A program made the translations under genes and the position numbers. The notes under the pieces were generated by a model that was not told the origin of the DNA, did no database searches, and saw only the letters and a list, made by a program, of their open reading frames with translations. This document shows positions 1 to 8,271 of a stretch of 8,271 nucleotides of DNA, in pieces (positions within the stretch are counted from its first letter, which is position 1; each line of letters begins with the position of its first letter). This stretch comes from Candidatus Absconditabacterales bacterium (lineage in GTDB: Bacteria; Patescibacteria; JAEDAM01; Absconditabacterales; Absconditicoccaceae): NCBI GenBank assembly GCA_938010495.1, contig CALLUT010000046.1, positions 1-8,271 of the forward strand, in the 5' to 3' direction.

Positions 1-728
1 ATCTTATTCGTCTTACTTTCTTTTACATGCGCATAATCTTTTTCTAATAAGGCATCTATTTTCTCTAATAATCACACGACATCTAGTCATAGATTCTTTA
101 ATTTTCTTCTATGCTTAAATAGACCTTTTCTTTGTTTTTCGATATATTTGCTGTACTCTTGAATCGTTTCATCCCATCAACGTTCCACTCAACTTATTAA
201 GAAACGATTCGAATTGATTGCATCTATATCTTCATCAACATCTTCCATATCATCTCGTACTTCTCACAAAGCATCATATTGTGTAATTAGATCAACATCT
301 TTAGGATTTCTGCCAATAACGTGCTCTATGATTCTTCTATTGAGAAATATGTCACATTGTTTTAATCCATAAAAGTCATCTATTGAAAATTCTAATGGAG
401 AATATTTATGCCTCATTGACATTTCCATTTCAAAGAAATCTCGCAGTCTCTTAGAATCTTCCTTTGCTTTTTCTATATTTCAAAACAAACGAACAAGAGT
501 CGCTAAAGTCGTTTGTTTTAATCTTTCGTATTTATCATCTAGCTCTTGTAATGACAAGATATTCTCCTCCAAATCATTATCAAAATCAAAAATATTTTTT
601 TGAAGGAGGAAAATAATATCTTTTGCTTTTTCTTGAACTACGTCATTAGATCATAGAGCATTACAATACTCTATCATATTTCTCTCTGCTCGAAGAATTT
701 CTACTTTTTTATTTAGATAATAGTTCAT
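1..728 (-). CDS. Hypothetical coiled-coil-rich protein (C-terminus outside window, table 25)
   Basis: I do not recognise the family. With UGA read as Gly the frame runs 242 codons from ATG (728-726) to the window edge with no TAA or TAG; seven in-frame TGA codons break it under the standard code. The protein is soluble-looking: no signal peptide or membrane segment, many Lys, Glu, Asp and Leu, and several long stretches with heptad-like spacing (about residues 30-110 and 165-240), suggesting helical bundles or coiled coil. A strongly acidic patch lies near residues 162-178. Three Arg-type CGA codons occur (residue 13 and two further on) and may encode Trp in this lineage. It is transcribed divergently from the membrane-anchored protein starting at 849. 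A perfect TTGACA lies just upstream, so the message may have almost no leader. The ORF is certain under table 25; the function is unknown. Confidence 0.85.
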
Positions 729-733
729 ATAAT

Positions 734-762
734 ATATTTACATATATATAACAAAATGTCAA
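734..762 (-). promoter_or_regulatory. Candidate promoter for the coiled-coil gene
   Basis: On the minus strand a perfect -35 hexamer TTGACA (762-757) is followed 16-17 bases later by TAAATA/AAATAT (740-734) within a TA-rich tract. The -10 is weak, but the spacing suits a sigma70-type promoter. Transcription would begin at or very near the ATG at 728, implying a leaderless or near-leaderless message. Inference from consensus only. Confidence 0.4.
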
Positions 763-769
763 CTTAGTC

Positions 770-798
770 TTGATTTATCAAAATCTTTAGTATATAAT
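770..798 (+). promoter_or_regulatory. Sigma70-type promoter for the membrane-anchored protein
   Basis: TTGATT (770-775), exactly 17 bases, then a perfect TATAAT (793-798). Transcription would start near 805, giving a leader of about 45 bases to the ATG at 849. It lies back to back with the candidate promoter of the leftward gene, so both share this 120-base divergent region. This is the best promoter match in the window. Confidence 0.6.
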
Positions 799-848
799 TA
801 AGTAAATAAAGAATTTGTCAAGAATATTTTAACTCATGACATTTCAAA

Positions 849-1445
849 ATGATACACAAAACAAAAAAAGTGATTAATTCAATGGTACAAAAGCACAAAG
901 AAACCCTTGATAAACACAAGGACATGATGTGAGTTCATGTTTTCTTAGCATTAATTGTTTGAGTATTCTTACATATGCTCTTTCCTCCAATGCACACATC
1001 TTCTGCAACACAAGATCATGAAAATTCAACTGCAATGGTTGAACATTATTCTCCTTCAATACAAAGTCATCAAGAATCCTTAGCCCATAATCTTCATGAT
1101 GAACTACGTATAATTCCAGCTAGTATTGCTGCTCCAAATGTATCAGTAAAAATCACTCCAGATGAAATGGAATGATATATGTTATTTCTATGAACAGAAC
1201 ATTTTGCTTTCACACCCAAAGAAGTGGGTAAAGCTTGAGATAATGATTATTATGAATGACATGCAACATTATATATTAACGATGAATATATGTGAAGAAT
1301 TTATAGTCCATACCATCATATACCACAACATTTTTTGAAATCTTGAAATAATATAGTATTAGTAACTCTAAATGATAACAACCATAAAACATTTTCACGA
1401 CATGATCAAGTTATTTATGATTCAGATATTATCACAGTAGAATAA
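849..1445 (+). CDS. Membrane-anchored extracytoplasmic protein with GHAxLYxN-type domain
   Basis: Read with UGA=Gly this encodes 198 residues ending in TAA, using eight in-frame TGA codons. The N-terminus is basic (about residues 1-26), followed by one hydrophobic segment at about 28-45, fitting a single N-terminal membrane anchor with the rest outside. A low-complexity His/Ser/Glu spacer (about 50-85) leads to a beta-rich domain (about 88-198) containing GHATLYIND at 137-145, a HHIPQH cluster at 156-161 and an LNDNNH segment near 174-179. This pattern resembles small exported domains with GHAHLYV...LNANDH signatures, often found in copper- or redox-associated surface proteins; metal binding is only a suggestion from the many His. 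The start at 849 is chosen; ATG 882 is an alternative that shortens the basic tail. No Shine-Dalgarno is seen. The CGA at 1398-1400 may encode Trp. It converges with the 58-residue gene, stop to stop 4 bases apart. Confidence 0.85.
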
Positions 1446-1449
1446 CAGA

Positions 1450-1626
1450 TTAATGAGCAAATACTTTTGCTTTACATAAACCAAATAGTGCTTCCATAAG
1501 TACTTCATCAGTAGGAAGTTCTAAACTTCTCATGTGAGATAGATCATCATCAAATGATGTCCAGTGTCTTTCTGACCATAATGTTGCTAGAAATAGAGCA
1601 CATTGATGTGGGTTAGCAAATGACAT
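1450..1626 (-). CDS. Small hypothetical protein, 58 residues
   Basis: An open frame from ATG (1626-1624) to TAA (1452-1450) encodes 58 residues and is open under both the standard code and table 25, as it holds no TGA. It has two TGG Trp codons, one GGT Gly, one Arg encoded by AGA in the first half, and a mix of acidic, hydrophobic and His residues; no membrane segment or recognised motif. Length and packing support it being real: it fills the gap exactly, 4 bases from the convergent upstream gene, with no competing frame. A 9-bp inverted repeat lies directly upstream in its presumed leader. It is downstream of trxB on the same strand but separated by a probable terminator, so it may be transcribed alone. 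The family is not recognised. Confidence 0.6.
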   Translation of the reverse strand: MSFANPHQCALFLATLWSERHWTSFDDDLSHMRSLELPTDEVLMEALFGLCKAKVFAH

Positions 1627-1636
1627 AATATTTATG

Positions 1637-1662
1637 AAAGAGTTAAATACGTATAACTCTTT
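1637..1662 (-). repeat. Inverted repeat in the leader of the 58-residue gene
   Basis: Arms AAAGAGTTA (1637-1645) and TAACTCTTT (1654-1662) pair perfectly over 9 bp around an 8-base loop. It ends 10 bases before the ATG at 1626 of the minus-strand gene, so it could be a leader hairpin or operator for that gene. It is AT-rich and modestly stable; a function is not shown. Confidence 0.5.
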
Positions 1663-1686
1663 TATAAGGAAGATCTTTTGTAAAGA

Positions 1687-1729
1687 AAAAAATGTACAAA
1701 CCTTCTAAGAAGAGATATGTACATTTTTT
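1687..1729. terminator. Probable terminator downstream of trxB (T-tract on both strands)
   Basis: A perfect 12-bp inverted repeat with arms AAAAAATGTACA (1687-1698) and TGTACATTTTTT (1718-1729). The 19-base interval contains a smaller nested palindrome CTTCTAAGAAG. Runs of A and T flank the core, giving a U tract after the stem on either strand. It lies 60 bases downstream of the trxB stop, where a terminator is expected. The stem is AT-rich, so termination strength is uncertain. Confidence 0.55.
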
Positions 1730-1789
1730 AAATTATATGTTTGGCTGTATAAGTCTGATAACCAATAGTTTTCATTACTTAGTTGTTTA

Positions 1790-2743
1790 CTAATCTTGCA
1801 AGAAATGCTCTGCCTCTAATGCAGCCATACATCATGTACCAGCTGATGTAATTGCTTGTCTATACTTCTTATCTTGTACATCTCATGCAGCAAATACTCA
1901 AGGAACGCTTGTTGCTGTAGACATATGTCCAAATGTTTTAATATATCATGCTTCATCTAATTCTACTTGTCATTCTAGGAAGGCAGTTGCTGGTTTATGA
2001 CCAATTGCATAAAACAATCCTCATGCTTCCAATGATGTTTCTTCATTTGTTTGGTTATTAATTACTGTCAGTCAAGTCATATATCCATCTTGACCAGTAA
2101 TTTCTTTTCATTCTGTATTTCGCATAATTTCTATTTTTTCATTATCCATAACTCTTTGTTGCATTACTTTTGATGCTTTCATCGCATCTTTTCTTACAAG
2201 CATAAATACTTTGCTTGCATATTTAGTCAAGAAATGTGCTTCTTCACAAGCTGAATCTCCTCATCAAATTACGATAAGTGGTTTATTACGAAACATTGGA
2301 AGTGCTCAATCACATACTGCACATGCACTTACTCAATTTTGCCAATATGTTTCTTCTCAGTCTAATCATAAACGCTTTGCAACTGCTCAAGTAGAAATAA
2401 GAATAGTTTTAGCAAGTCTTGGTTCATCTTCTCCTTGTGCCCAAACCTTGAACGGGCTAGCTGAAAGATCTACTTTTGTTACAGTTTTTGTAACTATTGT
2501 TGTTCATGAATTAAGAGACTGATCTCTCATTCTTATCATCAAATCAGGTCACATAACTCCATCAGGAAATCCTGGAAAGTTCTCAACATCTGTTGTTGTC
2601 GTTAACTGTCCTCATGCCGCTACTCATCATGCAAGAAACCCTTCAAACATTAATGGTTCAAGTAATGCTCTTCATGCATATATAGCTGCTGTATGACCTG
2701 CAGGTCATGATCAAATAATGATAATTTCTTCTACTTTTGTCAT
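1790..2743 (-). CDS. trxB: Thioredoxin reductase (table 25)
   Basis: An NADPH-dependent flavoenzyme that reduces thioredoxin in the cytoplasm. The frame runs from ATG (2743) to TAG (1790-1792), 317 residues, the usual length for a low-Mr TrxB. Domain order is canonical: FAD-binding [14 protein letters not shown] (11-24), [17 protein letters not shown] (44-60), redox-active CAVCDG (141-146), NADPH-binding [10 protein letters not shown] (160-169), and the C-terminal FAD motif AAGDV (285-289) followed by an AITSAGTGCMAA-type helix. Of 36 glycines, 23 are TGA, including those of the FAD and NADPH loops, so the gene is intact only if UGA is Gly. CAVC, rather than the E. coli CATC, and the [14 protein letters not shown] segment resemble the low-Mr type also found in eukaryotes. 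Residue 208, before NTEGKEI, is CGA where many TrxB proteins have Trp. The gene is divergent from the paralog operon. No Shine-Dalgarno. Confidence 0.97.
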
Positions 2744-2774
2744 AAATCTATGAGTAATAAAATATAATAAATTT

Positions 2775-2803
2775 ACTATACTAATCTTCTCCCTATTTTA
2801 CAA
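2775..2803 (-). promoter_or_regulatory. Candidate trxB promoter
   Basis: On the minus strand TTGTAA (2803-2798), 17 bases, then TATAGT (2780-2775). The start would fall about 25 bases before the trxB ATG. A small CCCT/AGGG inverted repeat (2791-2807) overlaps the -35 and could be an operator, though it is short. Consensus match only. Confidence 0.5.
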
Positions 2804-2834
2804 AGGGTAAGCGTTAGGTTAGAATAAAAGAATA

Positions 2835-2862
2835 TTGACTTTATTTATAATATATGTATAGA
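2835..2862 (+). promoter_or_regulatory. Candidate promoter for the paralog operon
   Basis: TTGACT (2835-2840), 16 bases, then TATAGA (2857-2862), about 20 bases before the presumed ATG at 2889. It faces away from the trxB promoter within the same 145-base divergent region. Confidence 0.45.
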
Positions 2863-2888
2863 TAGTTATTTATTAGTTCGTATTTCTT

Positions 2889-3731
2889 ATGTGAATTCGC
2901 GAAGAGTATAAAGTCATTTCTACTACCCTTGATTGATTTAATCAAAGAAAGGATTCAATTGACGAAATAACAGCGTATAAAGAGTGGTTATCAAGAGATA
3001 CTGATGTACTAAATATACTTCAACTTGAATCAATACAGCTCTTCCAGATGAGCTTTAAAATATTACAAGAAAAAATTGAGAAAAAGAAAAAGTCTATCGA
3101 AAATAATTGATATAATACATTACTAATAACTGATGAAATGTTAGATAAAAGATATCTATCAGCGACTTTACAACAAAGAATGCATGCAATACTTCCATCG
3201 GAAATTGAAGAATTTAGTGCTTGAAAAGATAAAGTTTCAATAGTACAAATGGCTTTTTGAAACAAGAATCATTTTAGAATGATAAACGATAATGAAATTG
3301 AAAACGTGAATAATTTATGAAATAAAAATCAGATCAAAAATTGAAAACGCATGCTTCAAAACAAGGTAATAAAACATGATATTCTTCTTGATCCGGAAAG
3401 AATCCCAATTAGCATATGGCACTATCTTGGAATGGCTAAAAACTTTCCTACAACAAAAAAAATGGTTCAATCAGCATCTCCTGAGTTAATAACTGAGAAC
3501 ACAAAGATTTTGCAGGATGTACTAAGTAGAACAAATCTCCATCATAAAGTAAATTTTAAACAAGAATACTACTGACCAGCTGTACAAAAATCTGTAACAA
3601 ATTTTCTCTTTTGAAATATTTTTCACTACTCAAATCCATGAAATAGAGTTGATAAAAATTGATTCCCAGAATATACAATGGATATTTATGAAGATATATA
3701 CGATTATTTAGATAGAAACAAAACATCATAA
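2889..3731 (+). CDS. Hypothetical protein, first of a tandem paralog pair (table 25)
   Basis: 280 residues ending in TAA (3729-3731), with eleven in-frame TGA codons. I do not recognise the family. An in-frame TAG at 2874-2876 limits the N-terminus, and ATG 2889 is the first start after it; the second codon is already TGA, so the standard code would give only Met. The protein looks soluble, basic and helical, with a lysine-rich helix near 55-70, QMAFGN at 120-125, LGM...TTKK at 180-191, LQDVL at 208-212, an aromatic- and Asn-rich part at 226-255 and NGFPEY at 257-262. These landmarks recur in the same order in the next gene, pointing to an ancient duplication. Its stop overlaps the next start by one base (TAATG), implying translational coupling. 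No signal peptide, membrane segment or catalytic motif was found. Confidence 0.85.
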
Positions 3732-4468
3732 TGAACAACCGTGACTCATATCAATTGCTTAAATCAATAAGAGATATAAACCACAAGTCTGAAGATCTCA
3801 ATATTTTTTCTAAAAATAAAGATGTGATACGCAACACGTTATGAATAAATTTTGATGTATTTTTAAAAGATACGTTCACGAACAGACGTGATTTATTGCA
3901 AGAAAAAATGAATAAAAACCCATTCTATAATATTAGAAAAGCTGATGAATGGATTTCTAAACAGTACACAAGAACTATTGGTACATCAACGGCATTCGTA
4001 CCAATACAAGACTGGCAAAAAAGTAGTTTTTCACATTGAAATAATCCACATTCATTATACCAAATGGCTTTTTGCAATTCTTACAAGCAATTTCTCGTAC
4101 CAAACCATGAAATTTTCAAAAAAGCTACATACAATGAAAAAGTCTCAATACGAAAAAAATGAATAAAAAACAGCCTCGATGATGTAACAAAAATTGATAT
4201 GAATTTCATGAAAAAACTATGAATTCGAACTCCAAAAAAATCCAACGAAGAGCGACTTGATAATGCGTTGATTATAGAAAAAGATTTACAAGATATACTT
4301 CCACAGTTTAGGAATAGAATGTCCTATGTTTCAAAAAGATCATCACAATGAAACTGGAAAAAACAAAAATCAAATCTCTCTCGCAACATTGCATTTACCT
4401 ATAAAAAAACCAAAGAGATCTGATTCAATTGATTTCCAAAGTTCGAGTGTAAGATTCATTCAAGATAA
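3731..4468 (+). CDS. Hypothetical protein, second of a tandem paralog pair (table 25)
   Basis: 245 residues from ATG (3731-3733), overlapping the upstream stop by one base, to TAA (4466-4468); seven in-frame TGA codons. The family is not recognised. It is basic, Lys/Asn/Arg-rich and without membrane segments. It shares collinear landmarks with the upstream product: LLQEKM at 55-60, QMAFCN at 111-116, LGIRTPKK at 163-170, LQDIL at 186-190 and NGFPKF at 233-238. The second half is highly charged (about 195-230, many Lys, Arg and Ser), which would allow nucleic-acid contact but does not show it. Three CGA codons occur, which become Trp if the second reassignment holds. It converges with miaB, with only 22 bases between the two stops and no clear hairpin. 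Confidence 0.83.
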
Positions 4469-4490
4469 TTTTATTGACGAATTAATAAAT

Positions 4491-5981
4491 CTACACAACC
4501 TCTCCATATAACGTAAACGGTTTCACTTCATGTACCTTTGCATCTACAAATTCACCGATATTATAATCATCTAGATTACTAGCAGTAACGGTGATATTTT
4601 TCATGTTGTCTGTGTATCCAGAAATTTTTCCTCAACCGATTCATTTGATCATCATAGTTCTTGTCTGACCAATTTCGGCAAGATTATTTTTTGTAGAAAT
4701 TTCAATAAGTGTATCGTTGAGTCTTTGTCGTCTTTCTTTTTTGACACTCATTGGAACGTTGTCTTCGTACTTCCTTGCACCATATGTTCATGGTCTAGGG
4801 GAATATATTCCAATATAGATCATATCAAAGTCACTATACGTAGTTAGTTCAAGTGATTTCACAAAATCTTCTTCTGTTTCATCACAAAATCATACGATAA
4901 TATCTGATGTTATACTCATCGGTCTCTTCAAAGAACGAATTCCATCTACGAAACCACGGTATTCATCGCTTGTATACCCCCTAAACATCTTCTTCAAAAC
5001 AGCGTCAGATCATGATTGTGCTGGCATATGAACATGTGGGCATATATTTGCTTTATCTTCGTGTAGAGCTCGAATCTCATCACTATAATAGGTCGGATAA
5101 GGGGATGTATATCTCACCCGTCTTACTCATTTCGTTTCTGAAGTTTTTTTTAAAATTTCATAAAAATCTGGATGTTTATTTACTATTTGTCAAAGAAGGA
5201 CTATTTCTTCAGCTCACTGTTTCACTTGAGCATTCACTTCTGTCATAATTTCATCAACTGGCCTATTTTTTTCTAATCATCTCGCATACGGCACTATACA
5301 ATATGCACAAAACTGTGAGCATCATGTAGAAATAGGAACATATGCTGTTTTTGTATTTTCCTTAAACAACATATTTGAATTATGTGGAATAATTCCTGTA
5401 TACTCATTTACAATATCTACCAAAGGATCAATATCGTACCCAAGTTTTCTCATTGCATAGGGTAAAAACCCTAAGTCGTTGATTCTAAAGAATAACTCGA
5501 CATTAGGAAATTGTTTGTTCATTTTTTTGAACAACGGATTGAACGCGTGATTTACGTACAAAATATCATCTGGTGCATCTTCGTTTCATAGTTTGAATGC
5601 TTTTACTACCTTTTGCAAAGCTGAATCTTTTTCCATTTCTTCAAGACCAACAATCATCGGTTCACTTGATTGAACACTATCAACAAAATTACCCATAGTC
5701 ATTTTCTTTGACTTAGTTGTTCATGTCTTTTTTAGATTAAGATTGTGTCCTATCATACATCATGTTAGCCATACTTTTTGTTCTGGTCTAAGTTCTGTAA
5801 GTTGTCATCGTACTTTATCTTCAGATTTTTGTCTAACACTACACGTGTCCAAAATCACTATGTCTGCCTGCTCTTTATTGTCTACATAAGAAAAACCACA
5901 GTTGCACAGTACCGCTTTGATACGCGCAGAGTCACTGTAATTCATCTGACATCCATATATAATTATGTGAAATGTTTTCAT
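4491..5981 (-). CDS. miaB: tRNA-2-methylthio-N6-isopentenyladenosine synthase (table 25)
   Basis: A radical-SAM, two-cluster enzyme that adds a methylthio group to i6A37 of tRNAs reading U-starting codons. 496 residues, ATG 5981 to TAG 4493-4491, with 14 in-frame TGA. The N-terminal methylthiotransferase domain has its three cluster Cys in YGCQMN (C11), DTCSVR (C47) and TGCM (C75). The radical-SAM motif is CSQFCAYC (C221, C225, C228), followed by VPYARG. Further family landmarks are RYTSPYP (290-296), HMPAQSGS (318-325), SDIIVGF (359-365), YSPRPGT (393-399) and a C-terminal TRAM-like domain (about 433-496). It is longer than usual: C75 to C221 is 146 residues against about 74 in E. coli, owing to an extra block at about 77-147 before the FPNVELFFRINDL segment. 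Four CGA/CGG codons fall where Arg is not the expected residue. The start is 19 bases after the surface-protein stop, so the two are likely co-transcribed. Confidence 0.95.
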
Positions 5982-6000
5982 GGAATGTACTATACTCTTA

Positions 6001-8271
6001 TTACCCTAAAATGCTATCAAAAAACTTTCTAAGCCTTCCAATTAATGTCATACTTTCAGCATCAACTCATGTGCTTGGAAGAAATGCAGGAAGTTGATAT
6101 TTTCATAATCAATTATATCATTCATTTAATGTACTATTTTCAATTTCCTGAGTTCATTCGAGGTTTCTTTTACGAATTAATTCTAACAAATTAAAACTAT
6201 TTTCATCTCTTTCTTGATTTTCAACTGGCACATTTGAATTTTCTTCCTCATCTGAAACTGGTTCTATTTCTTCATCAACTTTGAAGTTAATTGATACATA
6301 ATCTTCTACTGGAGTAGTTTCCTCTTCTACAAAACTTTCTTCTTCTGGTGCTGAAGCATGTTCTACTGGACTATCATCTTCGCCATCTGGTGACCATCAA
6401 ACATATCAATCTACATCAAGACTCGATACTACTCACCTTGGTCTATATTCAGGAATTTCATCAAGTTCACATTGATTCGAAAGTAAGTTACATGAATACC
6501 CTCACATACAATCTAGATCTGATGAACAGTTTGGTACTGGACAATCTGATCATATTTTTTCTTCAAAAGGAATTTGAAGTCATCCATCTGATACAATAGC
6601 TTGCACAACAGCATTTGTTCATGCGATCACTAATGATCATTCAAATACATCATCAAAAGTAAATCATGCATCATATAAGGTATTTTGAGTTTCAAGAATA
6701 ATTTGGTCAATATCTTCACCATCAATATTTGTTGAGAAGTTATATACTGTTCAACTTATAAGTAATCATCAGTACTTCATTCATTCATCAAGTCATACTT
6801 CATAACATGTCTCCATAGTTCATCATCAATCACCATCTGGTGCACACATTACTCAATTTCAAGAGAATCATGCATTACAACTACAAGCAAATCATCAAGC
6901 AACATTTGTACATGTAGCATCAATACTACAATTGTCTGTACCTAATGAACATTCGTTAATATCAGTCTCACAAGTAGTTCCTGTATATCAATCTGGACAT
7001 GAACACTCATAAGTATCCACTCCATCAATACATGTTCATCAATTCATACATGGGTTTGGCAAACATTCATTATCTGCTGGGGCATCACAAACAGTCTCTA
7101 TAGTTTCAACATATGATCATCAATCAGTCAATATTCAATCAGTTGCTGAAAAATTAACTGTATATGTTCAATCTATTACTCAAGATACTGATACTTCATA
7201 ATTTCACAATGCATCAAGTTCAGGATAGTACGTATAAGTATTTGTTATATCATCTCATTGCAATACCACCGTTACATCAACTATTGAAAGATCAGTTGCA
7301 CTCACAAATCAATAAATAATTTTTTCTGAACATTCGTATGGATCAGTAATTTCTAACATAGAAACATTATTTGTATATTCACATTCAAATCATCATACAG
7401 TGTTATTACAAGTTTCTCAAGCGACACAATCATGTGTTCATAATATACACTCATTACTATCTATTTCACAAGTATCTCATTGATATCAATCAGGACATGC
7501 ACACTCATAAGTATCTACTCATGTGTCAGAACATATTCAAGAATTTTGACACGGATTTTCTGCACAGCTATCTCAATCTTCACATATAAATCATCAATCC
7601 ATATTAACACATTGTTCTCATTGAATACACGTGTCTGTTCATGATACACATTCGTCGATATCCAATTCGCAATTATCACCTTCGTATCAATCAGGACACG
7701 TACATAAGTATGAATCAATTCATGTGTCAGCACACACTCATCAATTTTCACATGGATCAGGATTACAATCATTTTGAGTTTCATCATCCGAACACGTAAA
7801 TGATCATATTGTGTTGATACAAATTTGTTCTTCTCAACAATCATCTGTTCATTCTGCACATTCATCTACATCACTACAAGCAAATCATCATGAAGTATTA
7901 TTACAGGTATATCATAATCAACAATCATCTGTTCATTCAGCACATTCGTCTATATCAAGACATTCCCATGATCAATTTGTATTAGAACATGTTTCTCCAC
8001 TTGTACAGTCATCTGTTCATTCTGCACATTCATCGATATCATCACAGGTGTATCAGTCTCATACAAATCAAAGATCACACGCACAGATAAATCATCAATC
8101 AGTATCACTACACAATGCATCCACATCACAAGTATCAGTACCAAGAGTACATTCATCAATATTTGTACACATAAATCATCAATCGGTGTTTGTACATGTT
8201 TCTCAACTAGTACAATCATGTGTTCCTAGTGTACATTCATCTACATCAGTTTCACAAGTAGATCATATATA
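6001..8271 (-). CDS. Large EGF-module surface protein with LPSTG motif (N-terminus outside window, table 25)
   Basis: 756 codons run from the window edge to TAA (6003-6001). About 74 of 88 glycines are TGA. Order, numbered from the window edge: eleven EGF-like modules (residues 9-298 and 402-476), mostly opening with the calcium-binding signature D-[IV]-D-E-C; an Ig-like beta domain between them (about 304-395, with LGNYEVSV and GTYTVNFSATDG); an uncharacterised beta-rich domain (about 486-576); a Cys-rich stretch (577-601, CSSDLDC..GYSC); an acidic Pro/Glu/Asp linker (about 628-690); and LPSTG at 731-735 followed by 21 residues with a short amphipathic basic helix. EGF and Ig-like modules are extracellular, so this is probably an exported adhesin or stalk; the signal peptide would lie outside the window. 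Six EGF modules lack the last two Cys. No hydrophobic C-terminal anchor follows LPSTG. Attachment to a host or partner cell is an inference from the lifestyle of these phyla. Confidence 0.93.
6067..6081 (-). other. LPSTG sortase-like motif
   Basis: Residues 731-735, with the Gly encoded by TGA. It lies 21 residues before the stop, the expected position for a cell-wall sorting signal. The following residues (VDAESMTLIGRLRKFFDSILG without the usual long hydrophobic stretch) make only a weak match to a classical sorting signal. An acidic Pro/Glu/Asp linker some 40 residues upstream would suit a wall-spanning segment. Confidence 0.5.
6844..7068 (-). other. Complete EGF modules 10 and 11
   Basis: Module 10, residues 402-435 (Cys 403, 408, 414, 423, 425, 434; CMNGGTC, CSCPDGYTGTTC). 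Module 11, residues 437-476 (DINEC, Cys 441, 448, 454, 463, 465, 476), a full cbEGF. Both have six Cys, so the missing-cysteine pattern is confined to the upstream block. Confidence 0.85.
7087..7362 (-). other. Ig-like beta-sandwich domain
   Basis: Residues about 304-395. Alternating hydrophobic strands, an LGNYEVSVSG turn and GTYTVNFSATDG resemble bacterial Ig-like or CARDB-type domains of surface proteins. Two Cys (314 and 395) near its ends could form a disulfide. The family assignment is approximate. Confidence 0.55.
7378..7461 (-). other. Half-EGF module 9 (four Cys)
   Basis: Residues 271-298, opening DSNEC, Cys 275, 282, 288 and 297, ending GGFECE. It leads into the Ig-like domain instead of another EGF. 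Confidence 0.75.
7465..7662 (-). other. Half-EGF module 7 followed by complete EGF module 8
   Basis: Residues 204-231 (DIDECVSGTDTC..., Cys 208, 215, 221, 230) form a four-Cys unit. Residues 234-269 (Cys 236, 241, 247, 257, 259, 268; CACPDGYQGDTC) form a complete six-Cys EGF. This repeats the short-then-complete alternation seen earlier. Confidence 0.8.
7666..7773 (-). other. Complete six-Cys EGF module 6 (non-cbEGF type)
   Basis: Residues 167-202. C-x4-C-x5-C-x9-C-x-C-x8-C with CENGGVC, CTCPDGYEGDNC: the classic bacterial/Notch-like EGF pattern. GG and the DGY glycine are TGA codons. Confidence 0.85.
7789..8040 (-). repeat. Three tandem 84-bp units encoding four-cysteine half-EGF modules
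   Basis: Units at 8040-7957, 7956-7873 and 7872-7789 are each exactly 28 codons and begin D-[IV]-DECAEGTDDC, then a third Cys and a [GS]-[FW]-x-C end. DNA identity is high over the first 12 codons and lower over the rest, so the array probably arose by recent duplication. Each unit has four cysteines; the C-x-C...C half of an EGF domain is absent. Confidence 0.8.
8041..8163 (-). other. Complete calcium-binding EGF module (module 2)
   Basis: Residues 37-77 of the partial protein: NIDEC opening, six Cys (41, 48, 54, 63, 65, 76), DTDGGFIC before the C-x-C pair, and GDGYTC at the end. This is the standard cbEGF layout and the reference for the shortened modules on both sides. Calcium binding is expected from the D-x-D-E and D/N plus aromatic positions. 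Confidence 0.85.
8164..8247 (-). other. Half-EGF module 1 (four Cys)
   Basis: Residues 9-36, opening with DVDEC; Cys at 13, 20, 26 and 35. It runs directly into the complete module beginning NIDEC. The cysteine at residue 6 (STCE) just before it is probably the last Cys of another EGF module outside the window. Confidence 0.75.

Follow-up and report, generated by a model that had tools for sequence, protein, structure and literature searches.

Introduction

To our knowledge, table 25 is the only NCBI translation table in which UGA is read as glycine. This reading is known from Absconditabacteria and Gracilibacteria since 2013 (Campbell et al, 2013 and Rinke et al, 2013, cited in PMC8629427; Campbell et al also in PMC8080830), and a reassignment of CGA and CGG to tryptophan was described for Absconditabacteria by Shulgina and Eddy in 2021 (PMC8629427) and repeated for Absconditabacterales in a 2026 paper (PMC13092985). 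The passages of PMC8629427 on codon usage liken the CGA/CGG changes to an early stage, before any rebound of the codons, with one advanced Absconditabacteria species; no species there reaches 37 CGA per 10,000, and CGG lies below 7 in all but one. Here, the genetic code of an 8,271-nucleotide stretch from a Candidatus Absconditabacterales assembly (contig CALLUT010000046.1; the whole stretch is called the window) was analyzed. The window is interpreted, with a probability of about 0.95, as a fragment of an Absconditabacteria (SR1) genome in which three codons have changed meaning, UGA to glycine and CGA and CGG to tryptophan. An earlier note on this DNA had assigned it to table 25; the UGA part of that assignment stood, but it is not the whole code, as CGA and CGG appear to be read as tryptophan. 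The code itself is already known, because both reassignments have been published for Absconditabacteria (PMC8629427, in the part concerned with these codons), and it is most precisely called table 25 plus CGA = CGG = Trp.

Results

Long frames that are open when UGA is a sense codon

Under table 25, the window (GC content 31.5%) contains seven long frames, which carry 7, 8, 23, 11, 7, 14, and 74 in-frame TGA codons in coordinate order, 144 altogether, and are uninterrupted by TAA or TAG. Under table 11, no listed open reading frame (ORF) is longer than 153 amino acids and none covers any of the seven genes, in agreement with the earlier claim that seven of eight genes are open only if UGA is sense; the eighth, a small frame at 1450-1626, has no in-frame TGA. 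With 52 GGN codons in the seven genes, TGA would account for 73% of their glycine codons. All seven visible stops are TAA or TAG (four TAA and two TAG in six long genes, and TAA in the small frame). The longest runs free of TAA and TAG were 756, 504, 335, 284, 265, and 250 codons. Among 500 sequences simulated with a dinucleotide model, the longest run had a median of 162 and a maximum of 307 codons, and 15 of the 500 held any run of at least 240. The long frames are not due to chance, because observed runs of 756, 504, and 335 codons exceed the simulated maximum. Three of these genes have recognizable products:

1790-2743, minus strand: trxB, thioredoxin-disulfide reductase; 23 TGA; CGA codon 208 on a tryptophan column; stop TAG
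4491-5981, minus strand: miaB-type tRNA methylthiotransferase; 14 TGA; CGA codons 58, 304, and 418 and CGG codon 288; stop TAG
6001-8271, minus strand: C-terminal part of an EGF-repeat protein, 5' end cut; TGA at 74 of 88 glycine codons; stop TAA

TrxB was identified by TIGR01292 (374.6 bits, cut-off 343.45) and was also compared with structures. The MiaB product exceeded the cut-off of the MiaB/RimO subfamily model TIGR00089 (340.6 against 251 bits) and remained below that of the miaB equivalog TIGR01574 (314.8 against 355.3 bits). The EGF-repeat protein matched EGF_CA in eight stretches with 186.1 bits.

UGA codons stand at glycine positions

In TrxB, TGA was found at two glycines each in GSGPAG and GGGDSA and at the glycine of AAGDV, in MiaB at the glycines of the TGC, STGC, QSGS, and IVGF motifs, and in the EGF-repeat protein at the GG and DGY positions, all as the earlier note had read them. 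For the database searches with TrxB and MiaB, X was placed at every TGA to keep an assumed residue from biasing the matches. The TGA columns of the matches were mostly glycine with many tryptophans, the latter in 57 of 119 TrxB and 105 of 120 MiaB matches. These tryptophans are ascribed to recoded relatives that were translated with table 4, such as P0124, the stored TrxB of the window's own record, in which each of the 23 TGA positions is W; P0245, another stored protein of that record, has W at all seven TGA codons of the gene at 3731-4468. Both stored proteins combine Arg at CGA with Trp at UGA, a table-4-like translation, and searches against them lose identity at glycine and tryptophan positions.

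The columns were initially scored with 61 TrxB hits lacking W in TGA columns, P0209 having been dropped as an annotated SR1 protein; TGA then scored +78.2 bits for Gly and -57.7 for Trp (35 codons), and CGA/CGG (CGR) scored +5.0 for Trp and -2.4 for Arg (5 codons). Since this choice of hits itself strips Trp from TGA columns, the Trp value is biased; the codons were therefore rescored with a second set, on which we rely. That set comprised, for MiaB, 11 genes outside the recoded set that are open under table 11 and, for TrxB, six proteins picked by source name as other organisms. The MiaB genes came from a scan of species genomes that yielded 53 loci, namely 38 recoded relatives (L001-L038), the 11 standard-code genes (L041-L051) and four that were left out as fragments (L039, L040, L052) or as a short match (L053).

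With the MiaB profile, 12 TGA codons scored +29.5 bits for Gly, -4.1 for Ser as the next residue and -22.9 for Trp; with the TrxB profile, 23 TGA codons scored +47.5 for Gly, +1.5 for Ala as the next and -33.8 for Trp. Both earlier claims, that UGA is glycine and that it is not tryptophan, are borne out by these values. Across the 14 MiaB TGA columns of the 11 standard-code genes, Gly occupied 108 and Trp none of 154 cells, 25 of which are gaps; this alignment has gaps at TGA codons 87 and 132. The structure 3d8x, which we take to be yeast thioredoxin reductase, has Gly at 17 and Trp at none of the 23 TrxB TGA positions (counted by eye).

The same pattern was seen at the codon level. The 14 miaB TGA codons of the window correspond to 215 GGN and 171 TGA in the 38 relatives, and the 23 of trxB to 101 GGN and 65 TGA in eight relatives. 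Over pairs of all rows, TGA faced TGG in 3 of 19502 miaB and 0 of 1038 trxB pairs and faced GGN in 40% and 51%, respectively. Within the EGF-repeat protein, the equivalent site carries GGN (as in TLGTHDC) or TGA (as in AE-TGA-TDDC), depending on the repeat. Taken together, the homologous columns strongly support the reading of UGA as glycine, and the standard-code homologues exclude tryptophan.

CGA and CGG codons probably specify tryptophan

There are 11 TGG and 12 CGA or CGG codons in the seven genes, and the small frame adds two TGG. The earlier observation of TGG for Trp in the same genes is true but incomplete, since the 12 CGA/CGG codons seem to behave as tryptophan as well. Arg and Trp are mixed within the same columns of the MiaB relatives; the column of MiaB codon 288 (CGG) contains W 60 and R 60 among 120 matches. 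The column of TrxB codon 208 (CGA) contains W 80, R 36, and Y 3 among 119. At TrxB 208, Arg was found in 33 of the 57 matches that have Trp in TGA columns as against 3 of the 62 that lack it (protein-level hits, with their codons unseen); Trp was found in 58 of these 62 and in all six proteins named as other organisms. P0150 and P0206, both retained among the 61, have Arg at this position; in P0150, the conserved Trp column 134 is Arg as well. The remaining arginine codons behave differently from CGR: in miaB and trxB, CGT columns keep Arg, with a mean Arg share of 0.80 for CGT, 0.76 for AGA, and 0.71 for AGG, and the two genes contain no CGC.

Codons were further compared in ordered pairs. 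In 39 miaB rows, CGR faced TGG 1032 times and AGR or CGY never in 3556 pairs, AGR faced CGY 2510 times and CGR never, and TGG faced AGR seven and CGY three times; in nine trxB rows, CGR faced TGG 34 times and AGR or CGY never in 86 pairs. At the four CGR codons of the window's miaB, the 38 relatives (152 cells) have CGR 46, Leu 33, TGG 32, Thr 31, Phe 6, His 2, Ile 1, one gap and no other Arg codon; at MiaB 288 alone they have CGA 19, TGG 14, CGG 5 and again no other Arg codon. With the standard-code profile, the single TrxB CGA codon scored best for Trp (+5.2) and -1.1 for Arg.

These comparisons suggest that the 12 CGA/CGG codons of the window most likely mean tryptophan; if so, proteins translated with table 25 carry false arginines. 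No other change of code was found in miaB and trxB: the commonest column residue is the standard one for all codons seen except TGA and GCC, where GCC is represented by two positions and CGC, GGC, and TCG by none.

Transfer RNAs and release factors in related genomes

The earlier note had proposed looking for a tRNA-Gly with a UCA anticodon and for the absence of release factor 2 (RF2), and in relatives both checks gave the expected outcome. Eight genomes were searched, those of the seven best MiaB matches and the RAAC1_SR1_1 chromosome; acceptor bases were read with U8 required, and the tRNA-Arg(UCU) of genome G008, whose offset looks wrong, was excluded. A tRNA(UCA), labeled tRNA-SeC by ARAGORN, is present in seven of the eight genomes. 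Its neighbors are tRNA-Tyr, tRNA-Ala, and tRNA-Arg(UCU) in six genomes and tRNA-Tyr and tRNA-Ala in G005, where it lies near the end of the locus. In six of the seven it has G1:C72, C2:G71, G3:C70, and U73. In the SR1 bacterium CSBr16_97, the closest relative by MiaB and the carrier of 37 tRNA genes, tRNA(UCA) is 74 bases long with the acceptor GCGGGTA/TACCCGC and U73; the tRNA-Gly with UCC and GCC anticodons also start with GCGG and have U73.

In the same genome, tRNA-UCG, tRNA-CCG, and tRNA-Trp(CCA) share A1:U72 and G73, and tRNA-Arg with UCU, CCU, and GCG anticodons has G1 and A73; tRNA-CCG was looked for in this one genome. G73 is a mark of Trp-type tRNA identity according to the passage on these tRNAs in PMC8629427. 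One RF1-type gene with 2 to 14 in-frame TGA was found in each of the eight genomes, passing the prfA cut-off in four; the prfB cut-off for RF2 was passed in none. Below its cut-off, the prfB model matched the RF1-type gene in all eight genomes and one additional weak place in G008 (28.8 bits).

The window groups with SR1 bacteria

In a maximum-likelihood tree of 43 MiaB rows, for which the program warned of long branches at the outgroup, the window pairs with CSBr16_97 (support 100/99; 83% MiaB identity), and the next node adds two records that bear the title Candidatus Absconditabacterales, which makes a group of four rows (100/100). Two of three rows titled Gracilibacteria fall outside the remaining recoded rows, and the third (L029) inside. 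This tree of one gene indicates that the window belongs with Absconditabacteria (SR1), which sharpens the earlier, broader placement with Absconditabacteria/Gracilibacteria. One record titled Candidatus Peribacteria (L010, JAISMG010000002.1) lies inside the SR1 part of the tree and has seven in-frame TGA in miaB; it is probably misnamed or contaminated.

Usage of CGA and CGG in the lineage

In the window's eight genes, CGA and CGG make up 12 of 25 putative Trp codons; by simple ORF counts, the CGR/(CGR+TGG) ratio is 0.47. The same counts, taken over longest frames of at least 150 codons (about 3-21 kb per genome) with every CGR taken as Trp, an assumption that may not hold for the low-share loci named below, gave 983 CGR among 2239 putative Trp codons (44%) for the 38 recoded loci pooled. 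The share exceeds 0.50 in 12 of the 38, with the highest values in L022 (0.71), L027 (0.69), and L038 (0.63), and lies at 0.11-0.19 in L025, L026, L031, L033, and L035. The miaB genes of these five, and also of L006 and L032, contain no CGR. The low-share group may use CGR differently. CGA exceeds 37 per 10,000 in 23 of the 38 loci by the simple ORF counts. These values lead us to favor, with some reservation, the view that in this lineage the change of CGA/CGG to tryptophan is largely completed and not at an early rare-codon stage, and that both have rebounded to become co-dominant Trp codons. This would be a modest extension of the published code, and no claim is made that the rebound is unpublished, as no dedicated literature search was carried out.

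Other genes of the window

The remaining frames are as follows:

3-728, minus strand: gene of unknown function, 3' end lost at the window edge; 7 TGA, 3 CGA
849-1445, plus strand: gene of unknown function; 8 TGA, 1 CGA
1450-1626, minus strand: small frame of 58 amino acids; no in-frame TGA, two TGG for Trp; stop TAA
2889-3731, plus strand: unknown gene, first of a paralogous pair; 11 TGA; stop TAA
3731-4468, plus strand: unknown gene, second of the pair; 7 TGA, 3 CGA; stop TAA

No Pfam or NCBIfam family was found at E 0.01 for the genes at 3-728 and 849-1445, which have weak PHROG matches of unknown function (E 0.0016 and 0.01, respectively). The product of 2889-3731 matched Pfam Isy1 with 17.6 bits, below the cut-off of 25, and is 25% identical to that of 3731-4468 (E = 8e-5). 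Compared with about 5.8 billion proteins, the latter matched its own record alone. In eight related genomes, neither the gene at 3-728 nor that at 3731-4468 had a match, in searches run without a positive control. In CSBr16_97 (L001), miaB (10001-11485) and trxB (11516-12514) adjoin on one contig; in the window, the pair at 2889-4468 separates them on the opposite strand, which suggests that a duplicated gene was inserted specifically in this lineage.

The C-terminus of the EGF-repeat protein reads ...FLPSTG-VDAESMTLIGRLRKFFDSILG, in which the glycine of LPSTG is written TGA. LPSTG is presumably similar to a sortase motif; no clear membrane helix was seen after it by eye. Neither ARAGORN nor Rfam at gathering score found an RNA gene in the window, rRNA included. 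A viral origin was considered and rejected: six stretches in viral contigs fit the MiaB pattern, and none of them encodes a relative.

Discussion

Reading of the three codons

In the code proposed here, UAA and UAG would remain stops read by RF1 with RF2 absent, tRNA-Gly(UCA) would read UGA, and tRNA-Trp(CCA) would keep UGG as tryptophan. CGA and CGG would be read as tryptophan by tRNA-UCG and tRNA-CCG with their Trp-type identity bases, and arginine would be served by AGA/AGG and CGU/CGC through tRNA-Arg with UCU, CCU, and GCG anticodons. Within the window itself, codon and residue were shown to match for the UGA codons of TrxB and MiaB and at five of the 12 CGA/CGG codons. We infer that the genome from which the window comes has the same tRNAs and lacks RF2, and also how these tRNAs are charged.

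A number of observations weigh against this proposal. MiaB TGA codon 59 is Ser in nine of the 11 standard-code genes, and codon 450 is variable. No tRNA(UCA) was found in G003, where the match is a tRNA-Leu, and that of G004 has A3:U70 in place of G3:C70. The case for CGR is narrower: the other seven of the 12 codons lie in genes without homologues at hand, the codon-pair counts are not independent, as the rows have a common ancestry, and the standard-code margin is slight and comes mostly from a single TrxB codon, the four MiaB CGR codons scoring higher for Val and Phe (+1.8) than for Trp (+0.7), with Arg at -2.2. When matches are left unsorted by code, CGA columns show more Arg (0.30) than Trp (0.25), an excess ascribed to recoded hits translated as Arg. 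The evidence is weakest for CGG, whose single occurrence in the window, MiaB 288, provides the main counter-evidence, since in this column the 11 standard-code genes have Arg ten times and Trp once. By DNA similarity, tRNA-UCG was found in only three of the eight genomes (CSBr16_97, G002, and G003, all with G73), the other five giving no match, and G73 is not exclusive to tryptophan, as the tRNA-Arg(UCU) of G004 has it too; G73 alone is thus not decisive for Trp identity. The tRNA set and the release factors were, moreover, seen in relatives only.

Three other readings were weighed. If the code were exactly table 25, with UGA as glycine and all CGN codons as arginine, the Arg of column 288 would be expected, as would that in P0209 (RAAC1_SR1_1), an NCBI-annotated SR1 TrxB stored with Arg at the Trp position (KIEIMRNTEA). 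This reading is nevertheless improbable: the 3556 miaB and 86 trxB pairs place CGA/CGG opposite another Arg codon in none and opposite TGG in 1066, codon 208 of TrxB lies on a Trp column by either set of homologues, and in CSBr16_97 tRNA-UCG and tRNA-CCG carry G73 like tRNA-Trp. UGA as tryptophan, as in Mycoplasma (table 4), is the assumption behind the stored proteins of the record, and the W residues at the 23 TGA of P0124 and the seven of P0245 would agree with it. It is highly improbable, as Trp scores strongly negative in both profiles where Gly scores positive, TGA hardly ever faces TGG but commonly faces GGN in the relatives, and their tRNA(UCA) bears a tRNA-Gly acceptor.

Least probable of all is the view that the genes are pseudogenes or that their TGA codons are selenocysteine or programmed readthrough sites. 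The name tRNA-SeC given by ARAGORN would fit selenocysteine, but a tRNA-Sec is about 90 bases or more in length and the tRNA(UCA) of the closest genome has 74 bases, the tRNA-Gly acceptor and U73. The 144 in-frame TGA without any internal TAA or TAG likewise speak against decayed or recoded sites, as do the position of TGA on conserved glycines and the intact cysteine motifs (CAVC in TrxB, CxxxCxxC in MiaB).

Comparison with known codes

The window is a clear new example of a published code and not a new code. With table 25 it shares UGA as glycine and UAA/UAG as stops, along with relatives that have tRNA-Gly(UCA) in seven of eight genomes and no RF2 above cut-off; it differs in CGA and CGG, which are arginine in the table and behave as tryptophan here. 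If CGA and CGG are tryptophan throughout, table 25 mistranslates 12 of 25 Trp codons in the window and 44% in the 38 related loci, and, if the rebound is true, table-25 translations put Arg at a large share of Trp positions in these genomes. The practical weight is already visible in the stored proteins P0124, P0245, and P0209, which would be wrong at recoded codons. If general, the rebound would offer a natural series for the study of how a reassigned sense codon regains common use.

Table 4, used by Mycoplasmatales and others, also has UGA as a sense codon, but for Trp and not Gly. In the part of PMC8629427 devoted to reassigned arginine codons, Anaerococcus and the uncultivated Bacilli order RFN20 likewise turn a CGN Arg codon into Trp through a tRNA of Trp identity; there, CGG alone is reassigned, CGA is presumably read by tRNA-Arg(ICG), and that part describes no UGA change. 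The closest match is the Absconditabacteria code of the same paper, as far as its description there goes, with which the window agrees in the three reassignments, the low GC content, and its closest relative's tRNA-GCG (Arg) and tRNA-UCG/CCG with Trp-type bases. The two differ in that CGA is low there and above 37 per 10,000 in 23 of 38 loci here, the counts being drawn from Pfam-aligned columns there and from all long frames here.

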